Positions 6,713 to 25,428 of a stretch of DNA of 26,450 nt are shown here, in pieces. Numbering within the stretch: position 1 is the first letter of the stretch; the number at the start of each line of letters is the position of its first letter. The translations under genes and the position numbers were made by a program. The notes beneath the pieces were generated by a model. The model saw only the letters and a program-made list of their open reading frames with translations, was not told where the DNA came from and searched no databases. Source of the DNA: a virus; the IMG/VR virus record IMGVR_UViG_3300042898_001360, positions 1-26,450 of that record; one strand, written 5' to 3'.

Positions 6713-9700
6713 ATGCCTTGTTCAAAGAAAATTACCCAGTTATTAAGAGATCAAATTTATAATGAAGCAAGACCTGCTTTAAGTAGATCTCTTAATGATG
6801 CTCAGAAAATAATCAATAGCATCAATGAAAAATATGGTGAGAAAGTAGTAGGTCTTATTCAAGGAGATACACTAGATCTTAATGTATACGTTCCATTAGA
6901 ACTTGTAGATAAATACTATGAGAATGAATTAATGATGGAGATGGAGGAGATCAGACTTGCACAAGAAGAAGCAAGAGATATCCAAAGACAAGATGCTAGA
7001 AGAGCCGGGCAAGAATATACTGATGATTACTTATATGATAACACAGAGTCAACTAATTTGTTTAGTGATGAGCAAATTAGAATTGCAAGAGATAGAGAAA
7101 TAGCAAATAAACTTGGAGAGAAATACAAGAAAGCATTTGGTATTGAATATCAAACTGTATCAATGGCAGAGGCTGCTGTAATACTGCAAGACAGTCCAAC
7201 ACCATATACTTCAGATGTAGCGGCATTCTTTTATAATAACCAAGTATACTTTATAAATGGTAAGTTTAATTCCAATTCAGTAATACATGAGTTTGCTCAC
7301 CCATTAGTTAAAGCTATTCAATTTCAGAACCCAACTTTATTTGCAAATTTATTTGGACAGTTAGCTACAACAGCTACTGGGATGAAAGCTTTAGATAGAG
7401 TAAGATCAAAGTATCCTGAGTTAAAAGAAGACACAGAAAGATTTATGGAGGAAGCAATAGTTACCGCAATGGAACTAGATGCTGAAATGAAATTAAATAA
7501 AATCAAATCTGATGACAGTGCATTCCAGAAATTTATTCAGAACTTACTATATGCACTTAAACAAGTTATCAAAGCTCTTACAAAGAAAGTAAGCTTAAAA
7601 AAATTATCTACATCTACAGACTTAAACAGTCTAGTAGACATGATGATTAATGAAGACTTTGTTATAGAGGATCTGCAATATCAACTCAATGTGTTTGCAG
7701 AGTTTAAGAAAGATACTGATTCATTCCTAAAAGAACTTAAGTCTATCAAGCCTGAGAACCTAGTCAATGCTATTGACAGATTCCATGATGAGATGAACTT
7801 CCAACTAAACCAGTTAAAGATATCTCCTAAAAAATTAAGAGAAGAACTTGGTAAAGATGGTATAGATATCATTAAAAACATCCGTGACTATGTAAGTGGT
7901 TATGAAAAAGCACCAGAAGAAGCTACAGATGAAGACTTACAAAAATTAGTAAGTGTACTTCAACTTGAGCAACAAGATATGAGAACCAGATCTTTGGCTT
8001 TTGTAAATAGTTTAAATGAACTTGAGATGTTTGGTAGAAGAATTCAAAAGATTCTTTATGACTTAAAACAATCCGGGAAACATTTAACTGAAGAAGGTAA
8101 CCAAAAGATTCAGTTCTTTAAAGAGTTTATGGAAAGAGAAGTGGTATTCTTGAAAGATGTGAATAAGCTTATTGGCCTTGATCCGAGTACTGACATGAGT
8201 AAAAAGATTTACTCTATCAAAAACTTGATTGAGAATAACATTGAAGAAGCAGGAGACCTTACAATAGACTTTGTAAAAAAATTCTTTGTTAAAATTGGAG
8301 ATACCATGCAGTCAAGTGTAAGAACTAAACTGAATGAAGCTATTGATAAAATTTTAAAAACAGAAAATTATACAGATCAAGAAATTGAAGACTTTAAGAA
8401 CAAACTCTATGATCAATTAGATGTAGAGGATCTTAAACAAATCAATGTTGATAGTCTATTACCAAGGCCCTTAAATGCTATTAAGTATTTAAATAGAGCT
8501 ATCAAAAATTACAATTCAAATAAAATTACTGAAGCTTCAGTTGATGCTTATTTGAGAGGACATGTTAAAGATGTATCAATGGCTGGGGCTCTAATGAACC
8601 CTGTTGCTAATATCAATGATATGTTTGGTGTGTTTGCACAGTATATGCGTGATCAACAAGCTGATGCTGCTGTAGAAACAGAACGTAAACAAATGCAGCA
8701 AGTAGATGAGTTAAAACCTTATTTAAATGCTGCAGGATGGAATCCTAATAGCACTAATCAATTAGCTGACATGACATTGTTTGTTGATAAAGTTGGTGAC
8801 ATAGATAAAGATGGTAATTTCAAAGAATATGAAATCAATACTTTCTTAAATCAGTTTCAAAACTATAGAGCAGACAAAGCTAAATTAGAGAATGATCTGA
8901 AAATTGCTAAAGACAAAAATGATAAAACTATGATTGCAGATGCAATGAAGGTTTTATCTGACTTTAATAAAGACTATATGATCAGAAGATATACTGATGA
9001 AGTATATGAGGCTCAGAATATTTGGAAACAGGAGAATAGAGTAATTGACCCAGCTACCAATAAAGAAATTACTGTATCTAAAGAAACAGCATTAGAAGCA
9101 TATTTAGAAAGAAAAGAAGCATTAGATGATTTAAAAACATATAATGTATCAAATGAGTTTACTGAGCTTGATGACCTATTAGACTTTACTGGTTCTGATA
9201 ATGCAAGAACTAGATATAATGACTTGTTTAATCCATATGATAATGATGGTAAATTTAAACAAGGTAAAGATCTTGAGAAAGTACTTATCCGTAGATTATA
9301 TAGAGAAGAATCTAGAAAGTTCTATGAGAGTACTACTAATGTAGACAAGTTTCAAAAGGATTTAGATCACTTTGTTAATGTTGAGCTTGCCGGGATGGGG
9401 GTATCATTTGATTCAGATCCTGCTAGATATGAAGAACAAATGACTAAGTTCTTTAATAAGAACTTAAAGATTGCTTATAGTGATGAGTATTACCAAAGCC
9501 GTAATAGCATCATTGATGAGATCAAAAAGATAAATGAAAAAGGTAAGGGCTCAGAAATCTCTACAAAATTAGCGGGACTTTATGAACAAAGATATAATAT
9601 TGTTAATAGAGTAACTGATAAAGATGGAGAACCCAATGCATCAGAACTAGGTGAAGCTACTATAAAGAGATTAAAGGATATTGAAGAAGAAATTATTATT

Positions 9701-12583
9701 CTTCAAGATCAGTTTGATAGAAAGACTGGTTTATCTAAAGAAGAAGCTAAAAAATTAAGATACTATGAAGAACAAATCATAGGTAAAGGTAAAGGTGGTG
9801 AAATGACTGCTGATCAAAAGCAAGAGTATGCTGATTTAACAGCTAACAAATCTGCATTTGGATTATCACCACAGGAGATAACATATTTAAGAGGTCTTTA
9901 TAGAGAACTATCTGAGTTAACAGACATTACTTGTACTGAGTATTATACACAGTCTTTTAATAAAGCACTTGGAGATTTAAAAATTGAAGAACTTACTCAA
10001 GAGAATGCTGATAGCTGGATAAATTCAGAGAATGTTTTACATGCAAAAGCAAATAATACTAGATTCTCTGAATGGTTTGATAAAAATCACTATAAAAGAA
10101 ATAGCTACAATAATCAAACTGGATTATATGAGGATAGATACTTTAGATTAAAAGCATGGAGTGTATCTAGACCATCTGATTCTAAGTATTATAAATCTAC
10201 TGAAATTACAGACCCTTCAACAGGTAAAACAAGAATGGTACCGGGAGTTCCTATCCCTAAGTATTCATATATGCGTATTAAAGATAAATACAAAACAGGA
10301 TACAATAGTAACACAGGTAAGGTTGAACTCAAAGTAGGAGAGCATATTGATAATACAGGTAACTTCTTACCTAAAGATTATACTCCAGGTAAAAAAGGTA
10401 GTGCAAAAGATGACAAGTATATCAATAAAAAATATACTAATCTTAAAGCATCAAATAATGCTCAGTTTAAATTACTTGAGAAGTTAAAAGAAATTACTTT
10501 AAGAGATCAAGAAGACTCACCATACTCATCAAGACTGTATTTAGATCTTCCAAGATTAAGAATCCAGGATAATTTAGAGTATTTACAATCAGGTAAACTA
10601 GCTGCAGATGCAAAAGATAAAGTTAATGGTGCGTTAAGTGAGGTTAAGAGTTGGGTTGCCAAAGCCACAGATGACCCGGAAAGAGGTCTAAACTTTAGTA
10701 CTGATTACTTATATATCAAAACAGACTTACAAGGTAATCCTATCTCTAGAGTTCCTATCCGTGGTCTATATAAAATGAACATAGGTGAAGTTTCTAAAGA
10801 TGTATTAAGATCATTACTTACTTATGGTTACTCTATTGATAGACAAAAGATGCTTATTGATAATCAACCTATTGCTAAAGCATTATTAGATACATTAAGT
10901 GATCCAAATAATGCATTGGATAGATTGGATGTTGCAAGTAGTGTACTAGCAAAAACAAGAGATAAGGCTTCTATGTTCTTGAAAAGAGATACTAATAGAA
11001 GATTACAGTTGGCTAAGGATTATGTCAGCAGAACATTCTATGGACAAGGAGTTAGTGAATGGGAACAAGATCACCCTTCTACTAGTAAAATTGTACGTGG
11101 ATTAATGGGCCAAGCAAGTAGAGCATTTTATGCATTGAATCCTGTTTCTACATTAAAAAATAAACTTGGTATGGATTTCCAAAAATTGATATATACTTCT
11201 GGAGGTAAATATATTAGTTGGGGATCAATGGCAAGAGGAACTATTACTTCGGCAAAAACTGTTATTGATTATGCAGCTAATGGTGTATATACAGGGGGAA
11301 CAAAAAGTTTAAATCTTCAATTGGCAGATGCTTTTGATATGTCTCCTGATAATGCTGAAAAGAATGCAGGAAAGAGTAGTACTAGAACTGCAATAAAAGA
11401 CTTAATGAATGGTACTTGGATGTATTCAGATAGAAAACTTACTGAAATTCAAGGTTCATTAGATTTAGGTTTTAGTTTATTAGAGTTCCAAACTGTTGAT
11501 CAAATACAACCTGATGGTTCTACCAAACAAATATATTACTATCAAGCATTTGAGTTGGATGATAAAAATTTAGTAAAGCTAAAAGATGGTATTAATCCAG
11601 AATGGGGAGTAACAAAAGTAAATCATACTATAGTTAAAGGAGATACCTTAGAATCATTAGCTAAAAAATATCACATGAGTGTGGAAGAGTTAGCTGAAAA
11701 GAATTCTATAAAACCAGGTACAGATCTTACAGAAGGTGACTCTTTGGTAATCTCACAAAATAAAAAGTTCAATGAAGTAAAAAGAAGAATCTATAGTGCC
11801 AATAAAAAACTTAATGGTACTATGAGTAAGATTGATTCTCCAATGGCAGAAAAATACATGCTATATGATATCTTTACTTTCTCAAGAAAGTTTGGTACAG
11901 GTATGTTCTTATCAAGATATCAAATGGATTCTTCAGGTGAAACACTTGGTGATAGATTGTCCGGTGAAGTTTGGGATTGGGATTTAAATGAAACATCCAA
12001 AGGAAAGTATATCAGCTTTATTAGAACTACTCTAGATTTAATTAAAGACTTTAAAACTTACTATCCATTAATGACAGTTGATGAAAAGAGAGCTGCCAGA
12101 GAAGTTATAATGGAAGGTATGATGTTATTCATTACAGGTTTATTGGTATCTCTATTATTTGGATATAGTGCAGGTGATGAAGACAGATTCAAAAAATTAA
12201 AAGAAAGACAAGAAAGATATGGTGTCGCAGGTTGGCTTGCTAATCATGCTTTATATCAACTAATCATGGTACAAAGAGAGAATCAATCTTTTATTCCAAT
12301 TCCAGGAGTTGGTGCTGATGAATGGTTAGATTTTACTGAAACATCTACAATTGTAGTTGGACCAACATTATCTTTATATTCTAAAATTTTAGTTGACCTG
12401 GGTCTAATTCTTACAGGTAGTGATAAAGCTGTCTATAAACAAGAAGTAGGACCATATACATGGCAAAAAGAAGGAAGATATAAAATTTGGAATCACTTAG
12501 GTAGTGTATTCGGTATCTCAGGTAAAAATGCAAGTCCTATATGGGCTGTGAAAAAAGCTGAGATGTTTGAGAACTTAAGATAG
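6713..12583 (+). CDS. Giant zincin/LysM protein, likely virion cargo or ejection protein
   Basis: A 1956-residue protein starting 18 bases after the RNA polymerase gene and presumably co-transcribed with it. Near the N-terminus, H192-E-F-A-H196 in VIHEFAHP is a zinc-metalloprotease HExxH motif. It is followed by acidic helices (FMEEAIVTAMELDAE) that could supply the third zinc ligand. The middle is largely charged and helical, with many coiled-coil-like stretches. A LysM domain lies at about 1638-1681 (HTIVKGDTLESLAKKY, then a LVIS end), which in known families binds peptidoglycan or chitin-like glycans. A strongly hydrophobic segment at about 1801-1821 (MMLFITGLLVSLLFG) could span a membrane. 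Crass-like phages carry giant proteins next to the RNAP that are packed into the virion and ejected; size and position fit that role. Protease activity is likely from the motif but unproven. The gene ends at TAG just before a bidirectional terminator. Confidence 0.65.
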   Translation: MPCSKKITQLLRDQIYNEARPALSRSLNDAQKIINSINEKYGEKVVGLIQGDTLDLNVYVPLELVDKYYENELMMEMEEIRLAQEEARDIQRQDARRAGQEYTDDYLYDNTESTNLFSDEQIRIARDREIANKLGEKYKKAFGIEYQTVSMAEAAVILQDSPTPYTSDVAAFFYNNQVYFINGKFNSNSVIHEFAHPLVKAIQFQNPTLFANLFGQLATTATGMKALDRVRSKYPELKEDTERFMEEAIVTAMELDAEMKLNKIKSDDSAFQKFIQNLLYALKQVIKALTKKVSLKKLSTSTDLNSLVDMMINEDFVIEDLQYQLNVFAEFKKDTDSFLKELKSIKPENLVNAIDRFHDEMNFQLNQLKISPKKLREELGKDGIDIIKNIRDYVSGYEKAPEEATDEDLQKLVSVLQLEQQDMRTRSLAFVNSLNELEMFGRRIQKILYDLKQSGKHLTEEGNQKIQFFKEFMEREVVFLKDVNKLIGLDPSTDMSKKIYSIKNLIENNIEEAGDLTIDFVKKFFVKIGDTMQSSVRTKLNEAIDKILKTENYTDQEIEDFKNKLYDQLDVEDLKQINVDSLLPRPLNAIKYLNRAIKNYNSNKITEASVDAYLRGHVKDVSMAGALMNPVANINDMFGVFAQYMRDQQADAAVETERKQMQQVDELKPYLNAAGWNPNSTNQLADMTLFVDKVGDIDKDGNFKEYEINTFLNQFQNYRADKAKLENDLKIAKDKNDKTMIADAMKVLSDFNKDYMIRRYTDEVYEAQNIWKQENRVIDPATNKEITVSKETALEAYLERKEALDDLKTYNVSNEFTELDDLLDFTGSDNARTRYNDLFNPYDNDGKFKQGKDLEKVLIRRLYREESRKFYESTTNVDKFQKDLDHFVNVELAGMGVSFDSDPARYEEQMTKFFNKNLKIAYSDEYYQSRNSIIDEIKKINEKGKGSEISTKLAGLYEQRYNIVNRVTDKDGEPNASELGEATIKRLKDIEEEIIILQDQFDRKTGLSKEEAKKLRYYEEQIIGKGKGGEMTADQKQEYADLTANKSAFGLSPQEITYLRGLYRELSELTDITCTEYYTQSFNKALGDLKIEELTQENADSWINSENVLHAKANNTRFSEWFDKNHYKRNSYNNQTGLYEDRYFRLKAWSVSRPSDSKYYKSTEITDPSTGKTRMVPGVPIPKYSYMRIKDKYKTGYNSNTGKVELKVGEHIDNTGNFLPKDYTPGKKGSAKDDKYINKKYTNLKASNNAQFKLLEKLKEITLRDQEDSPYSSRLYLDLPRLRIQDNLEYLQSGKLAADAKDKVNGALSEVKSWVAKATDDPERGLNFSTDYLYIKTDLQGNPISRVPIRGLYKMNIGEVSKDVLRSLLTYGYSIDRQKMLIDNQPIAKALLDTLSDPNNALDRLDVASSVLAKTRDKASMFLKRDTNRRLQLAKDYVSRTFYGQGVSEWEQDHPSTSKIVRGLMGQASRAFYALNPVSTLKNKLGMDFQKLIYTSGGKYISWGSMARGTITSAKTVIDYAANGVYTGGTKSLNLQLADAFDMSPDNAEKNAGKSSTRTAIKDLMNGTWMYSDRKLTEIQGSLDLGFSLLEFQTVDQIQPDGSTKQIYYYQAFELDDKNLVKLKDGINPEWGVTKVNHTIVKGDTLESLAKKYHMSVEELAEKNSIKPGTDLTEGDSLVISQNKKFNEVKRRIYSANKKLNGTMSKIDSPMAEKYMLYDIFTFSRKFGTGMFLSRYQMDSSGETLGDRLSGEVWDWDLNETSKGKYISFIRTTLDLIKDFKTYYPLMTVDEKRAAREVIMEGMMLFITGLLVSLLFGYSAGDEDRFKKLKERQERYGVAGWLANHALYQLIMVQRENQSFIPIPGVGADEWLDFTETSTIVVGPTLSLYSKILVDLGLILTGSDKAVYKQEVGPYTWQKEGRYKIWNHLGSVFGISGKNASPIWAVKKAEMFENLR

Positions 12584-13096: not shown

Positions 13097-14209
13097 TTAG
13101 AAAAATGCTGAAAAATCAGCCTCTTCATCATCATCATCAGATATGTTGATTTCAAAATCATCAAGTTCTAAATCAGAAGTGATATCATCTTCTACTCTGT
13201 ATAATTCTTTTTCTATGATTAATTTTTCTTCATCCGTAGGTTCTAAATCATAAGCAGCACATGGTGGAACTTTAGGAACCTCAAATGTGTTACCTACAGG
13301 GTCAACATAAGTAATAACTTCATCTATCGTAATATTACAATCAAGTTCTTCTACTTCTAATTCACTTTCCTCAGCTTCTACTCTGTCAATCTCAGTCAAA
13401 ATGTTTAACTGGTTCTCTGGTTGACCATAATTTGTTGTTAATGAATCTACTACAGCTTCAACTTGGGGGGTAACTTGAGGGGTGACTTGGGGGGTACTAA
13501 AGTTATTAACAGTTGATATAAAATAATGTAACACTCTCTGATCTTCCATCCATGTTTTAGGATGAGAATGTTGCAGTGCAGTAGTTACATAATTATAAAA
13601 TGCCCATAGACTATTAGTATCCTCAAATACATGACTTGGTTTGTCCATTTCATTTCTAATCATACTAGCTTGCTCAGTAGTAAGAATTTTATACTCAGCA
13701 AACAGGATACCTAATAACTGAGATTGTTTTCTCTTAGTCATAGATATAACTTTCATAGCTTCCTTATCAGATACTAACTGATTATAATACATAGTAGCAT
13801 CAGCAATCTGATCCTTAATAGTCTGTATTGTTTCTGCATCTGCTGTACCAGTATGTTTTCTAGCCCAGCTTCCCATGTCTCCACATACCATCACGGTTCC
13901 TATTTGGTTCACATATGCACCAACACCACACTTAAATCTTACTTGCTTGTTATAACTATTAGTCCAAGCAAACATCATAGATAATTCTGGGTCACTATTA
14001 TAGTTCAATCTATAAATACCCTGAGCAATCTGACCATCTGCAGTTGCTCTATACTCTTCTGTTGTAATCCCAAAACCTGCGTTAGCAAGTTCTGTAAATA
14101 CATAATCCATTACTGACTCATGGCTGATAACTGTGTAGCTATCACCATGAACCGGTAAGTCAATACTAATCAAATGTGCTTTTGTGCAATCTTGAATTTT
14201 CTTTGGCAT
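13097..14209 (-). CDS. DUF932-like protein with acidic C-terminal tail
   Basis: A 370-residue protein. Residues about 80-210 resemble the DUF932 phage/plasmid family: NSYNKQ (84-89) where members have an NSxDG-type turn, a GVGAYV...VCG stretch, HTG (119-121), and LWAFYNYVT (201-209) matching the usual LWxxYNxxT. The biochemical role of the family is unsettled. After about residue 238 the domain gives way to a low-complexity linker with three TPQV repeats (239-250). A very acidic tail then ends in DDDDEEADFSAFF. That ending resembles the acidic, aromatic-tipped tails of single-stranded-DNA-binding proteins, suggesting protein-protein contacts or nucleic-acid mimicry (inference). The ATG is 1 base from the stop of the polymerase gene upstream, so the two are translated from one transcript. 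The DUF932 call rests on motif memory and is moderate. Confidence 0.55.
   Translation of the reverse strand: MPKKIQDCTKAHLISIDLPVHGDSYTVISHESVMDYVFTELANAGFGITTEEYRATADGQIAQGIYRLNYNSDPELSMMFAWTNSYNKQVRFKCGVGAYVNQIGTVMVCGDMGSWARKHTGTADAETIQTIKDQIADATMYYNQLVSDKEAMKVISMTKRKQSQLLGILFAEYKILTTEQASMIRNEMDKPSHVFEDTNSLWAFYNYVTTALQHSHPKTWMEDQRVLHYFISTVNNFSTPQVTPQVTPQVEAVVDSLTTNYGQPENQLNILTEIDRVEAEESELEVEELDCNITIDEVITYVDPVGNTFEVPKVPPCAAYDLEPTDEEKLIIEKELYRVEDDITSDLELDDFEINISDDDDEEADFSAFF
13461..13496. repeat. Three tandem 12-bp units, G-rich on + strand
   Basis: Three 12-bp units (ACTTGGGGGGTA, ACTTGAGGGGTG, ACTTGGGGGGTA) encode the repeated TPQV peptide in the DUF932-like gene. The + strand shows G6, G4 and G6 runs, unusual in this AT-rich DNA. 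The number of units could vary by slippage. Confidence 0.85.
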
Positions 14210-14210
14210 C

Positions 14211-16109
14211 TTAAAATAAACTTAATTGGTTATTAATAGGTTCTAAAGACCTAATCTCTTTATAAATGTTCTCTAGATAATACTTTGTATTAATATCATA
14301 CTCAGCAAAATCTTTTTCTACATGATCAATCATAATAGTTTGCATCCACTTCCCAGCCTCTACCTGGATTTCTCTCCCGTCAGTATTATTCTTCTTGATA
14401 ATCTTTGACCCGGAATTGGAAACAAAATATCTTATTGTATGTTGTAAAGGTTTAATAGTATGTTCTCCATCAGCAATAAAGTGCTCATAGAATTCCCAAT
14501 CTCCTTTAATCTTTACACCACCACAGTAATCAAATATGTTTTGGTTCTGTGCTAAGTAGTCTTCAGGTTTAATCCCGTCAACAAAATAAGCTTGGATAGC
14601 TTTAGGTATAATTAAGAAACTCTTGTTTTTATGAAGAGCTAAATCTTTATACTCAAATCTACCTTTACTTTTAGCTTTACCATTTTCTGTAATAGCTATA
14701 TAGTTGTTCACATCACCAAGAATGATTTTACTATAGGTATCATGTTCTAACTGTAGCATGGTTCTCTTCTCCCATCTTGCACAGATATCCATATATCTAT
14801 CAACATACTCCCGCGGGATCATAGTCTCTAAACCATCTGTATTCTGCATTAGTGGAATAGCATTTGGAATCTCTTCACAAATCATCTCATACAACATAGT
14901 CAAACTTAACTGACCATTAATAGTAATCCTCATAGTAAACTCAGGATCATACAGGAAGCTATTCTCATCATTACTCAACCCATAGGTTGAGTTTAAGATA
15001 ATCTTGTATACATAATTCTTGGGATCTGACTTTGGTATCTTCTTTCTTTCTTCAAAGAACCACTCATACAGATCACAGAATTCTTCCTTAGGTAAATGTG
15101 CCGGAGACCATCCATTTCTAATAGCTAGATTAGGATAAAAACTGGTAACATCACTTGTCATGATAACCATATCTTCCACAGACTCATATACCTTAGCAGA
15201 CCTAGCACCATGTATACCACCTAGACCATAATCAGTCTTCACTCCTTTGTACTGTACAGAGTACTTAAAGCCTCCTTTAGTTTGACCAGGATAGATGACT
15301 ACATCTTGAAACTTCTGTAATAGATTCTCAAATGTAGCTGTCTTGAATTGAATATAGGGTAGGATAATATCTTTAACTACTATCTTGTCCCTATGTGTTC
15401 TCATCTGCTTTAAGTCCCACTTCCTGATACCAGTGTGGCTACTTAAGAAATGCAAAAACAATTCTTTAGAAATCCGTGGTTCAGATGCAGAGAATAAATT
15501 GATATTATACTCTTCAGTCAAAGTCTTCCTAAGTTCTATCTGACTCTTACTGAGCTGCATGATAGCCTTAGTGGACCTAACATCATTAATACAATATCTA
15601 ATAATCTCTGGAATCTGATCAATATTAATTGTCTGAGTATGATGAATAGGCATATCCATTATATTCTTCCAATCCATTGTATACTGAATCCACTTTAAAG
15701 AACTTCTCTTAGCTGCATTATCCCAGTGATTAAGTTTAAATACATCTACCTGGTTAATCTGAAGATCCCGTAAACTAAATTCTAAGAATTCCTGACGGTT
15801 CTGTCTGCCAATTACATCTTGTGCCTTACTATAAATAAACCTAGCAATTGTCTCACCATCTTGGTTAAGTAATTGTTCTTTATTTCTAAGGACATGTTCT
15901 GTAATTTGACTATCAAACCCCAAACCATTAAAAGATACATGCCACTCTCCTAGTTGAATGTTTCTTTCTAGAAACCCAATAAATTCTATTATTTCATTTT
16001 TGTCTTTATGGACTGTGAATATCTCACGTTCCTCAGACTTAACACTCTCAAACACGGCAATGAAACAATTGGATAATGTTTCAAAATCCATCACATAATG
16101 TGTTCTCAT
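14211..16109 (-). CDS. Family B DNA polymerase with 3'-5' exonuclease
   Basis: A 632-residue replicative polymerase. The exonuclease domain shows Exo I D8-F-E10, Exo II FNGLGFDSQI (N61, D66) and Exo III Y172-x3-D176. A YGLGGIHG loop (294-301) links it to the polymerase core. Motif A is D320VTSFYPN, motif B is K369-x3-NSTYG (373-377), and motif C is N423-T-D425-G instead of the usual DTDS; the catalytic second aspartate is kept. SKGRFE (481-486) fits the thumb KxY position. Motifs A and B are only about 49 residues apart, leaving little room for a TPR2 insertion as in protein-primed enzymes. The C-terminus is NQLSLF, and QLSLF matches the bacterial beta-clamp-binding consensus, so it probably uses the host DnaN clamp. 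Its ATG follows a terminator by about 38 bases, so it may have its own promoter. It is paired with the DUF932-like gene. Identity is secure; clamp use is inferred. Confidence 0.93.
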   Translation of the reverse strand: MRTHYVMDFETLSNCFIAVFESVKSEEREIFTVHKDKNEIIEFIGFLERNIQLGEWHVSFNGLGFDSQITEHVLRNKEQLLNQDGETIARFIYSKAQDVIGRQNRQEFLEFSLRDLQINQVDVFKLNHWDNAAKRSSLKWIQYTMDWKNIMDMPIHHTQTINIDQIPEIIRYCINDVRSTKAIMQLSKSQIELRKTLTEEYNINLFSASEPRISKELFLHFLSSHTGIRKWDLKQMRTHRDKIVVKDIILPYIQFKTATFENLLQKFQDVVIYPGQTKGGFKYSVQYKGVKTDYGLGGIHGARSAKVYESVEDMVIMTSDVTSFYPNLAIRNGWSPAHLPKEEFCDLYEWFFEERKKIPKSDPKNYVYKIILNSTYGLSNDENSFLYDPEFTMRITINGQLSLTMLYEMICEEIPNAIPLMQNTDGLETMIPREYVDRYMDICARWEKRTMLQLEHDTYSKIILGDVNNYIAITENGKAKSKGRFEYKDLALHKNKSFLIIPKAIQAYFVDGIKPEDYLAQNQNIFDYCGGVKIKGDWEFYEHFIADGEHTIKPLQHTIRYFVSNSGSKIIKKNNTDGREIQVEAGKWMQTIMIDHVEKDFAEYDINTKYYLENIYKEIRSLEPINNQLSLF

Positions 16110-16585: not shown

Positions 16586-17152
16586 TTAATCTAGAATTTT
16601 TATATTTTCCAAATCAACCACCTCAATCAACAACTTTTCTTTTTCTAAATCAGGTTTGCTACATAATTCACCTACAAATTGGAGTAAATCAACATCAACT
16701 TTTAATATATTAGCATAGTCATCAAAATACTTCTCAGGATAAAGATAACTTTCAATATATATTTTATTTGCACTATTACTATTAAAGTGCTCAAGAATAA
16801 TGCGCTTTAGATCATTCTTTATTTTACTGTATTTGCCATTTACAATATAATTCCAATCATTTTGTAAATCAGAAAAATCAAATGTAAATATACTAGTTGT
16901 ACTATCTACTACTACATGATCACTAAGTCTAGTATGTTTAAAAAGAATATTCTTTTCAAAACTAATATACTCAGGATCTGTTCTTGTATGATATACACAA
17001 ACTAATTTTGCATCCTCGGTAGAATAACTTGTTCCCCATGACAAATATGTCTCTGTTGGAATAGCTGGGCTACCTTTTTTAATTTCTAAGAGCGGATACA
17101 AAAACACCTTAGATTTTTGAAAATATTTAGTATAAAGCGCTTGTAAGGGCAT
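16586..17152 (-). CDS. Unknown 188-residue protein
   Basis: No family recognised. The protein looks soluble, with mixed strands and helices and many aromatic residues (MPLQALYTKYFQ at the start, YLYPEKYFDDYANIL in the middle), and ends in an acidic stretch with VVDLENIKILD. No membrane segment or signal peptide. Its ATG lies 3 bases after the TAG of the PD-(D/E)XK nuclease gene, so translation is probably coupled to that nuclease. A role beside the nuclease or the polymerase is suggested only by position. Confidence 0.7.
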   Translation of the reverse strand: MPLQALYTKYFQKSKVFLYPLLEIKKGSPAIPTETYLSWGTSYSTEDAKLVCVYHTRTDPEYISFEKNILFKHTRLSDHVVVDSTTSIFTFDFSDLQNDWNYIVNGKYSKIKNDLKRIILEHFNSNSANKIYIESYLYPEKYFDDYANILKVDVDLLQFVGELCSKPDLEKEKLLIEVVDLENIKILD

Positions 17153-17155
17153 AAT

Positions 17156-18175
17156 CTACAATTTTACATTACCAATTGCTAGCTCATAAGGCAACGTATA
17201 ATCTTTGTTTTCATAGTGATACTTTACAATATCTTCTATGTCTTCAAAGTCTTGTTGCCAAATTGCTAAACTCTCCTGTGAGACTTGAAAGGGATACACT
17301 TGGTTGTATTTATCTATTACAATAAATGTAACTACTATATTCCAGTCAGCCTTATCAGATAATTCTTTAACAAACTTATAGTATGCCATTTTATAATATA
17401 CTACTGCTTGAATCCAGTACTTATAAAATTTAACAGCATCAGGAAAATCTGCTAGATTCTTACCTGTTGTTTTAAGGTCATTAATAAATATAGTCTTTGA
17501 CTCAGAGTCTATTACTACATTATCTAGGATACCCTTAAAACCAAAGGGTAGATAATCAACATCAATTAATAATGGCAACTCATTATGAACTGTGATGTGA
17601 GTATCTTCCTCAGTCCTGTCAAGTTGTAGTAGAGCTCTAACAGAAGTATTATTTCTAAGAACTTCAACACTTTCTTTACAGCCATGCAAAGTAGGTTCAT
17701 CTACTACAGTCTTGTCTAGACTTGATTTAAGAAAAGTAAAGTAATCTTTGTGTTCCTCAGTCAGAATCTTAGCAAGTCTTTGCTCATCTGTCTTTAAGGA
17801 TTGGTGTAAGTTAATTGTGAGTAGTTGTGTGAGTATCTCAGTAGAGTAATCATCCAAATTTAAGGAATCATTTCCAACTGTGCAATGGTATTTAAAAATA
17901 TTATCAATAATTATTTTGTTGTTACCACTTGGTAACTTACCAGGTAGTAACATAAATTGGTCATCAAATGTATGTGGATCAAGTAGTAAACAGTGTAGGA
18001 CACGCCCTGTTACCAGGTGCGCATCCGTACTGTCCTCTCTTTGATTCAAAACATAATGACTGTAAAACATTCTAGGTGAAAACAATAGCTTGTTAATGCT
18101 ACTGTAACTAAAATAGAACTTCTTGTTGTAGAATTGTGTTAGTTCATCAGAACCAGTCAATGTCAGTGGACTCAT
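17156..18175 (-). CDS. PD-(D/E)XK exonuclease (RecB/RecE/Cas4-like)
   Basis: A 339-residue nuclease. The N-terminal FSYSSINKLLFSPRMFY resembles the opening of RecB/Cas4-family nucleases, and G57-R-V-L-H61 matches the conserved GxxxH. The catalytic core is GILD218, then D233-L-K235 in INDLKTTGK, followed by Q256-x3-Y260 (QAVVY), the usual Q-xxx-Y motif. No cysteine cluster for an iron-sulfur centre is apparent, which favours a RecE or DUF3799-type exonuclease over Cas4. It would resect double-stranded ends to make 3' tails for the Sak4-like ATPase and the SSB-like protein encoded upstream in the same block. The ATG lies inside the preceding gene (29-base overlap), implying coupled translation. 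The core motif needs most of the upstream residues, so a much later start is unlikely. Confidence 0.8.
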   Translation of the reverse strand: MSPLTLTGSDELTQFYNKKFYFSYSSINKLLFSPRMFYSHYVLNQREDSTDAHLVTGRVLHCLLLDPHTFDDQFMLLPGKLPSGNNKIIIDNIFKYHCTVGNDSLNLDDYSTEILTQLLTINLHQSLKTDEQRLAKILTEEHKDYFTFLKSSLDKTVVDEPTLHGCKESVEVLRNNTSVRALLQLDRTEEDTHITVHNELPLLIDVDYLPFGFKGILDNVVIDSESKTIFINDLKTTGKNLADFPDAVKFYKYWIQAVVYYKMAYYKFVKELSDKADWNIVVTFIVIDKYNQVYPFQVSQESLAIWQQDFEDIEDIVKYHYENKDYTLPYELAIGNVKL

Positions 18176-19463
18176 TAGTTTGGGTTATTTGATGGTTATT
18201 TGATAAGAGTTCGGTTTCTAGAGTAACTTCTGTGTCTTCAATATCTAGTTCAGCAATCATCTCTCCCATAGCTTCATCTTCTTCCTCAGTAAAGATAGGT
18301 TCCACGTCATCAATGATCTCTCCTATGAATTCATTTAATACAATATCTTCTGAACCAGCTACTCTTTCTTCTTCATCAAACTCAATAGGCAATTCCGGTC
18401 CAACATAGTCATCTTGTACACTATAAGTATAGTTACTACCTAAACTAGCAATATGATCAGGATGTACAGTAATAGTCTTTACAGTAAAGTACTTACTATC
18501 TCCTCTATTTTGGATCTCACTACTCAAATGTTCCATTACAATTTCCAACTTATCTGTAGTAAATTGACCCTTGTTAAGTAAGCTATCACCTATATCATCA
18601 AGATCAGTATATAGAGATCTCATGTTCTTACCCAGGTAACTCACAAGAGACTTAAAGTTAACATGATTCTTAGAATGGATATCTGAAATTCTATTTGCAT
18701 AATTATGAAATAATAACTCAAGATAAATCAAACTCTCAGTGTACCTAGAATTTGCCATAATCTCCATAGCTAGTACATGATTATCTGTATCTGAACTCTT
18801 AAACATTTCACCAAGATGCTCAAACATCTCTCTATCAATGACAGTAGCATCCTCACCATTTAGTATATCAATCACACAAGACTCATCATAGATTGTAAGA
18901 GATTGTAAATGCTCGTACTCTTCTTTGTATTGATCATCAACAATCACTACTCTCTGACTGTATTTAGAACATTTACTATTAGCAATAGCACCATTAACAT
19001 TATTAGCAACAGTCCAAGATATTGCAACCTCTTCATTTTCATAGAACTCAAGAGCAGTTTCAATTTTATCTCTAGTATGTCCATCTAATCTGTGATCAAT
19101 AAGTTGTATAAACTCCTTCAACTCAGAAGTTGGTAGAGTATATGGCCACTTATTTATAGTCATATGGTGTGTGCTTTTAGAACAACCAAAGAAAACATTA
19201 GCTTCTTTGATATTTCTAACAGTTTTGATACCGTATTCTACAGATACATTTTTAAACTTAACTCTTGGTACACTAACTTCTGGTAAGAAATAAATCTTAT
19301 CACCTTGTTGTGGTACATAAGGTGTTTTAACAATGTCCAATAAAGTACTGCTATCTTCAGTAAATGTGCCCAACCAAGAATCAACTTCACAACTTACATG
19401 TTTGGTATCATTAGATGACCAATGTGTATCTAGGTCAAGGTGAAAATATAATATATGTTTCAT
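18147..19463 (-). CDS. Unknown 438-residue protein with acidic tail
   Basis: No family recognised. The N-terminus (MKHILYFHLDLDTHW) and first 110 residues look beta-rich; the middle, about 120-330, is more helical. From about 355 the chain is strongly acidic with clusters such as FDEEER and FTEEEDEAMGEM, and it ends in ESTDIDWF. An acidic tail with a terminal phenylalanine is characteristic of single-stranded-DNA-binding proteins, though nothing else proves such a role. It opens a transcription unit: a terminator lies only 12 bases upstream of its ATG. Its end overlaps the nuclease start by 29 bases, so a role in recombination or replication is plausible. No membrane segment seen. Confidence 0.7.
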   Translation of the reverse strand: MKHILYFHLDLDTHWSSNDTKHVSCEVDSWLGTFTEDSSTLLDIVKTPYVPQQGDKIYFLPEVSVPRVKFKNVSVEYGIKTVRNIKEANVFFGCSKSTHHMTINKWPYTLPTSELKEFIQLIDHRLDGHTRDKIETALEFYENEEVAISWTVANNVNGAIANSKCSKYSQRVVIVDDQYKEEYEHLQSLTIYDESCVIDILNGEDATVIDREMFEHLGEMFKSSDTDNHVLAMEIMANSRYTESLIYLELLFHNYANRISDIHSKNHVNFKSLVSYLGKNMRSLYTDLDDIGDSLLNKGQFTTDKLEIVMEHLSSEIQNRGDSKYFTVKTITVHPDHIASLGSNYTYSVQDDYVGPELPIEFDEEERVAGSEDIVLNEFIGEIIDDVEPIFTEEEDEAMGEMIAELDIEDTEVTLETELLSNNHQITQTNESTDIDWF

Positions 19464-24747: not shown

Positions 24748-25428
24748 TTAGTCTAAGCTAAAATCAGATGAAGTTTTAGGTGTGATATTAAGATCATCAT
24801 CACCAAATGCTTTCACATCTTTTACTTCAATCTTTTTAAGATGTTTTGCTTCATCATAAGGCATAACCTTACCTGCTTCTACTTCAGCCATAGCATATTT
24901 CTTGTTCTCTGCTTTTGGTAACCACATGTCATAGTTAGTATAACCTGATTTGCTTTCATATTCTTTACCTGCAACACAGAATTCTAAGAAATGATTTTGA
25001 TATGGTGCATGTTTAGTAAATGCATTTACAAAATCTTCAACAGTTTCATGTTTACCATCTTGCTCACGGAACCAATCATTAATACCTAATGTATTACATA
25101 AGTTCTGTAAGAAGATAAGAATAGATCTATCTCTTTGAATCTTGATACCAGATTTAGTTTCTCCATCTGCAAATGCATATTGGCTAGCTTTGATTCTACC
25201 AATCTGACCATCATATCTACCCAGGCTCTCATTATCTTTGTCAATCCAGAAACCTTCAAAATCTTCAATAGGTTCTGTTTCTACATGCAAGATAAGATGT
25301 TTTGCACCTTCAATGAATCTAAAATCTTCTAGTTCAATGCTGTTAATTTTTAATGTATGATTTCCTGGTGCAATTGTTTTTGCCATTCCTGAACCACCTG
25401 TTCCTAAGTCTGTTGTGCTTAATGCCAT
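24748..25428 (-). CDS. Probable single-stranded-DNA-binding protein
   Basis: A 226-residue protein. The first half looks beta-rich (NHTLKINSIELEDF, KHLILHVETEP), consistent with an OB-like domain as in phage SSB or DUF669-type proteins. A helical region follows (DRSILIFLQNLCNTLGI). The end is acidic: KAFGDDDLNITP and a final SSDFSLD. It lies 21 bases downstream of the Sak4-like ATPase, a pairing common in phage recombination modules. A later ATG at codon 15 could be the start, because the first 14 residues (TTDLGTGGSG) are a flexible lead-in; the longer form has an A-rich leader. The SSB call rests on position and tail rather than on a signature motif. Confidence 0.5.
   Translation of the reverse strand: MALSTTDLGTGGSGMAKTIAPGNHTLKINSIELEDFRFIEGAKHLILHVETEPIEDFEGFWIDKDNESLGRYDGQIGRIKASQYAFADGETKSGIKIQRDRSILIFLQNLCNTLGINDWFREQDGKHETVEDFVNAFTKHAPYQNHFLEFCVAGKEYESKSGYTNYDMWLPKAENKKYAMAEVEAGKVMPYDEAKHLKKIEVKDVKAFGDDDLNITPKTSSDFSLD

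Follow-up and report, generated by a model that had tools for sequence, protein, structure and literature searches.

The family-B DNA polymerase (PolB) encoded in the window, the 26,450-base viral stretch analysed here, ends in the peptide QLSLF, which is very probably a clamp-binding motif; through it the phage PolB would dock on the DnaN sliding clamp of the host and be processive without a clamp of phage origin. The evidence comes from the tail itself, from its conservation in close relatives, from the recurrence of similar peptides in distant crAss-like polymerases, and from searches for clamp genes in related phages.

The window polymerase and its C-terminal peptide

We assign the window PolB to the crAss-like family-B polymerases by its match to phrog_1252 and by the invariance of its predicted exonuclease and polymerase motifs (Table 1). 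The Pfam model PF00136 reaches 18.8 bits against this protein, below the cut-off of 23, and the best PDB fold matches of the structure model are family-B polymerases. Deviation of motif C in the crAss-like PolB group is known from a previous study (PMC7544198). Crassvirales are recognised by their terminase, portal, and giant virion RNA polymerase genes; a relative (G021) has PHROG matches to terminase, portal, and head; its terminase is 26% identical to that of cr6_1 (E 6.6e-34) and its giant ORF is 22% identical to the gp50 region of crAss001 (E 3e-9).

Table 1. Positions of the window features referred to in the text
Feature	Position	Strand	Remarks
1956-aa protein	6713..12583	+
DUF932 gene	13097..14209	-	next gene after PolB
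Family-B DNA polymerase, crAss-like group	14211..16109	-	632 aa; phrog_1252, E 1.2e-141
PolB stop codon	14211..14213	-
QLSLF, residues 628-632	14214..14228	-	at exact C-terminus; predicted clamp-binding pentapeptide; from ORF translation
N preceding QLSLF	14229..14231	-
Linker EPINN, residues 623-627	14229..14243	-	from variability and structure model
Last PolB helix, residues 608-622	14244..14288	-	from model; tail projects from helix end
Motif C variant NTDG, residues 423-426	14832..14843	-	N423, T424, D425, G426 invariant
Motif B KIILNSTYG, residues 369-377	14979..15005	-	K369, N373, G377 invariant
Motif A DVTSFYP, residues 320-326	15132..15152	-	D320, S323, Y325, P326 invariant
Exonuclease DxE (D8-F-E10)	16080..16088	-	D8, E10 invariant in alignment
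438-aa protein	18147..19463	-
Gene upstream of primase	24748..25428	-

The translated PolB ORF closes with ...RSLEPINNQLSLF-stop, and the initial annotation had read this end correctly as NQLSLF (14211-14231, minus strand: N-Q-L-S-L-F-stop). It had also likened the tail to the peptide by which bacterial polymerases bind DnaN, and this likeness holds against the published clamp-binding consensus QL[S/D]LF (PMC12309361), which QLSLF fits including the essential Q and LF. Among the 21 ORFs kept for the window, the PolB tail is the only strict match, compared with a shuffling expectation of 0.075 strict matches anywhere in these ORFs. A five-residue motif is short, and the resemblance might be due to chance; however, the probability that a given PolB pentapeptide fits even the wider pattern is 6e-5, a strict match at a C-terminus arose in none of 200 shuffles, and the peptide is both conserved (80/80 loci, see later) and recurrent. 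Conservation refutes chance resemblance, to which we attach a negligible probability. In the AlphaFold model of the whole PolB, residues 623-632 form neither helix nor strand, pLDDT values below 50 are confined to residues 628-632, and the QLSLF tail is predicted to sit in a flexible, accessible segment.

Several other features of the window and its relatives were recorded. The neighbouring DUF932 and 438-aa proteins end ...DEEADFSAFF and ...STDIDWF, respectively. Both endings are acidic tails with terminal aromatics, as are the commonest endings in their relatives, and they recall the acidic tip that SSB has in bacteria. Only its position makes the gene upstream of the primase SSB-like; in most relatives its product ends SSDFSLD and lacks the DDxPF-like tip (DDLPF, EDLPF) found in both p-crAssphage SSB-annotated proteins. 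In the 1956-aa protein, residues 1635-1680 give a LysM-like match and a zincin-like HEFAH is also present; its ORF has no match among the named phage records. Several short ORFs in G021 (L111:9913-10853 and 16594-17016) have TTxKPLNQN and EQYYNETFKSE in common, as would members of a repeat array. Terminase frames contain 10 in-frame TAG codons in cr6_1 (W03) and 10 in-frame TGA codons in G049, which fits recoding of stop codons in the late genes of crAss-like phages.

Conservation and recurrence of the peptide

The initial annotation had proposed that the tail be looked for in related PolBs, and the motif is kept in every close homolog: all 80 loci retrieved from IMG/VR, 74-95% identical to the window PolB, end in Q[LY][SKT]LF (QLSLF 55, QLKLF 18, QLTLF 5, QYKLF 1, and QYSLF 1). 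Q, L-2, and F stay the same in all 67 of their distinct 3' ends, and positions -8 to -6, the final three residues of the EPINN linker, are freely variable. The ATG of the DUF932 gene lies one base past the PolB stop, so that the last PolB codons double as its translation-start context, and throughout the window group the downstream ATG lies 0-3 bases past that stop. The last two codons are TTA in 65 and TTT in 67 of the 67 ends, whereas background use is 0.28 and 0.70. Because these near-fixed codons exceed background and adjoin the next ATG, a nucleotide constraint overlaps the tail in the window group, and part of the conservation at the DNA level may stem from the start of the next gene rather than from the protein. 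That the conservation of the tail is itself a DNA or RNA constraint imposed by the DUF932 translation start region, as the near invariance of TTATTTTAA 0-3 bases ahead of the next ATG would suggest, is nonetheless most unlikely: the window group varies its codons at Leu-4 and Ser/Lys/Thr-3, the peptide of the Suoliviridae described later is encoded by varied codons, far from the next start, and in phi14:2-type PolB and in PolA the motif lies inside the gene. The internal and distant cases largely refute the start-codon constraint, and we set it aside.

The PolBs of gut Suoliviridae, which are about 27% identical, end in or near a QLSLF-like peptide (QLSLF, QLSLWD, QMSLWD, QLNLFNFDEY, QLELF, QLTIFDD, and QLSLFDDQTC). 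Their tail codons vary synonymously and the next gene, where visible, starts tens of bases away, which argues for constraint on the peptide itself. Six distinct phi14:2-type (Steigviridae-like) PolBs have no tail but carry an internal Q[L/M/G][N/D]IFD (QLNIFD, QMNIFD, QMDIFD, or QGNIFD) in an insertion approximately 50-60 residues before the end, and the structure model of L130, one of the six, places the motif within a disordered loop (residues 580-611). PolB is encoded in two parts in phi14:2, in cr53_1 (with an HNH gene between the parts), and in two phi14:2 relatives (L081, L084, L129, L132), in line with the introns expected in crAss-like polymerase genes.

The QLxLF tail was not found in 10 sampled proteobacterial-phage PolBs or in 3 Queuovirinae-like PolBs, and no clamp motif was found in the PolBs of p-crAssphage and of Flavobacterium phage FpV4; clamp docking would therefore not be universal even in phages of Bacteroidota. 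Most tail-less PolBs (proteobacterial-phage, FpV4, and Queuovirinae-like) stop at or shortly after the helix equivalent to the last one of the window PolB. Few named phage records were sampled, and a search of IMG/VR for relatives of the p-crAssphage PolB found none. In a PolB tree built with the tails cut off, the window group, the phi14:2-type PolBs, and the proteobacterial PolBs fall together (96/95), as do Suoliviridae and p-crAssphage (100/99); the AU test rejects a tree that joins the window group with Suoliviridae (p = 0.0006, for groups picked after the first tree had been seen). Because the two tailed groups stand in separate clades, the tail requires at least two changes on this tree. 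The separate clades favor independent gain, with two gains as the simplest reading; a single gain followed by several losses would be less simple.

A crAss001 PolA query found only itself, and an alignment query yielded 80 PolA loci with short flanks; a crAss-like terminase is present in many PolA records. Steigviridae PolAs (crAss001, cr111_1, cr108_1, and tikkala) carry Q[GQ][DN]L[FW] just ahead of a conserved NWxSxxQ segment. This segment probably belongs to the thumb as laid out in Pol I, near the site of the thioredoxin-binding insertion of T7 polymerase, and the loop with the motif would then be a thumb loop. At this one loop site, 70 of 75 distinct crAss-type PolAs have Q..[LMI][FW] (QGDLF 19, QLSLF 16, QLDLF 14, plus others) and the remaining 5 have degenerate forms (AGTLF, QLSFF, MSDLW, MQDLF, and DGDLF); one PolA (L403) is without the anchor used for this count, yet has QGDLF. 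A further recurrent Q-x-[SA]-[LM]-F (QQSMF, QRSLF, QQAMF) lies elsewhere in many aquatic PolAs (L371-L389 and similar).

Clamp genes and the host clamp

The initial annotation saw no sliding clamp in the window, and indeed PF02767 (DnaN) has no match there; absence of a clamp cannot be concluded from this record alone, the window being a fragment of 26,450 bases. A clamp gene elsewhere, for which a search had also been proposed, did not come to light as a DnaN, gp45, or PCNA type in relatives as large as 122 kb: PF02767 has no match in the records of 33 relatives (46-122 kb), and PF02916 and PF00705 have none in 14 large relatives; several of the relatives are 110-122 kb, with completeness not given. 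PF02767 likewise has no above-threshold match among 29 named phage records (one weak match, in CAjan) or 25 PolA records (one sub-threshold match, E 0.005). The relatives searched thus do not appear to encode the clamp of a T4-type replisome. These searches were profile-based, and a very divergent clamp could escape them, as the annotated beta subunit of JG054 did.

On the host side, the crAss-like affiliation points to Bacteroidota as the host phylum. The more specific suggestion of Bacteroides finds no support here: a search for relatives of the polymerase in the genomes of 84,980 bacterial and archaeal species returned none. DnaN is present in 12 of 12 Bacteroidota genomes, and one Bacteroides DnaN aligns with solved clamps across the SDGHKL and C-terminal MPM segments, which presumably line the client pocket. 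Candidate client motifs are found in several Bacteroidota proteins: DinB endings include QLSLDF, QLKFGF, YQLQLFD, and similar forms; UmuC-like proteins have Q[LIVM][NDGR]LF (QLGLF, QINLF, QVNLF, QMNLF, QLNLF, and QIDLF) followed mostly by acidic residues; and some DnaE proteins have QVSLFG. A clear motif in the C-terminal region of MutS was seen only in Pedobacter genomes (QLQMF), and MutS therefore adds little. Judged by sequence, the phage variants QLNLF, QMNIFD, and QLSLFDD belong to one class of peptide with these client motifs.

Two other partners or purposes for the tail have to be weighed. The tail might bind a processivity factor, or some other replisome protein, that the phage encodes and that bears no recognisable likeness to a clamp, a reading favored by the facts that the genes of the related phages are mostly unannotated and that clamp families were searched by profile only. 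We nevertheless consider it improbable, as the peptide corresponds to the bacterial DnaN consensus and to the motifs of Bacteroidota DnaN clients, and as its recurrence in PolB and PolA amid different surroundings is better suited to a constant host partner. Alternatively, the tail might bind host DnaN mainly to deprive the host polymerase of its clamp. A QLSLF peptide would contend with host clients for one pocket, and E. coli polymerases are known to compete for one DnaN groove (PMC5731819); against this, the motif forms part of the polymerase, whichever its family, and no other window protein has a strict match, so that clamp theft as the main role is decidedly unlikely.

The earlier suggestion that the phage PolB may use the host clamp is thus supported by the conservation of the tail in 80/80 loci, by its recurrence in distant crAss-like polymerases, and by the absence of a detectable clamp in the phages searched. 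For host-clamp docking we propose that the host clamp loader would load DnaN, and that the flexible PolB tail would dock into the hydrophobic client pocket of this ring; PolB, at the primer end, would then be tethered to the ring behind it and gain processivity. Tethering of this kind is established for RB69 gp43/gp45 (PMC3012046) and for E. coli Pol II/DnaN (PMC5731819).

Known systems and a possible common docking point

Polymerases with clamp-binding peptides are familiar from other systems. E. coli Pol II is, like the phage PolB, a family-B enzyme with a QLxLF peptide, and its QLGLF at residues 779-783 docks in the DnaN groove (PMC5731819); it is, however, a cellular translesion enzyme, whereas the phage PolB is shorter, crAss-like, and has NTDG as its motif C. 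The identical pentapeptide is likewise C-terminal in B. subtilis PolC, where it binds DnaN with a KD of 3.8 uM (PMC12309361), but PolC is a family-C cellular replicase. The phage family-B polymerase gp43 of T4/RB69 binds gp45 by a flexible C-terminal clamp peptide (PMC3012046); T4 pairs a PIP box with a PCNA-like clamp of its own, whereas no such clamp was found in the crAss-like relatives searched. Queuovirinae phages such as CAjan and JG054 have PolBs of the same broad family without a QLxLF tail, and directly upstream of PolB they have a gene annotated as DNA polymerase III beta subunit, an annotation that our profile search supports weakly in CAjan and does not support in JG054. Finally, actinobacterial PolA2 has a QxxLF in an unstructured loop that was modeled on DnaN and, according to the 2026 report, had no precedent among bacterial A-family enzymes (PMC12926913); that loop belongs to a vestigial exonuclease domain, whereas the crAss-like PolA loop precedes NWxSxxQ, in what is probably the thumb.

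The new part of the present analysis is the recurrence of the predicted motif at three sites across two polymerase families. The literature that we searched, with most subscription journals outside the search, gave no report of a crAss-like phage polymerase docking on the host beta clamp, and the passages searched in three central papers on crAss-like polymerases (PMC7886860, PMC11348598, and PMC7544198) do not mention a clamp motif. Docking on host DnaN could be a constraint shared by these phages, such that PolA and PolB, in replacing one another, keep or re-evolve a clamp peptide, each at a site of its own (the tail or an internal loop of PolB, a thumb loop of PolA); we regard the chances of this broader reading as evenly balanced. 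If true, it would explain how such different polymerases are exchanged in place. If the host clamp is used, a common docking point would make polymerase swaps workable, the phages would have a testable host dependence that could bear on host range, and a simple peptide assay would be at hand.
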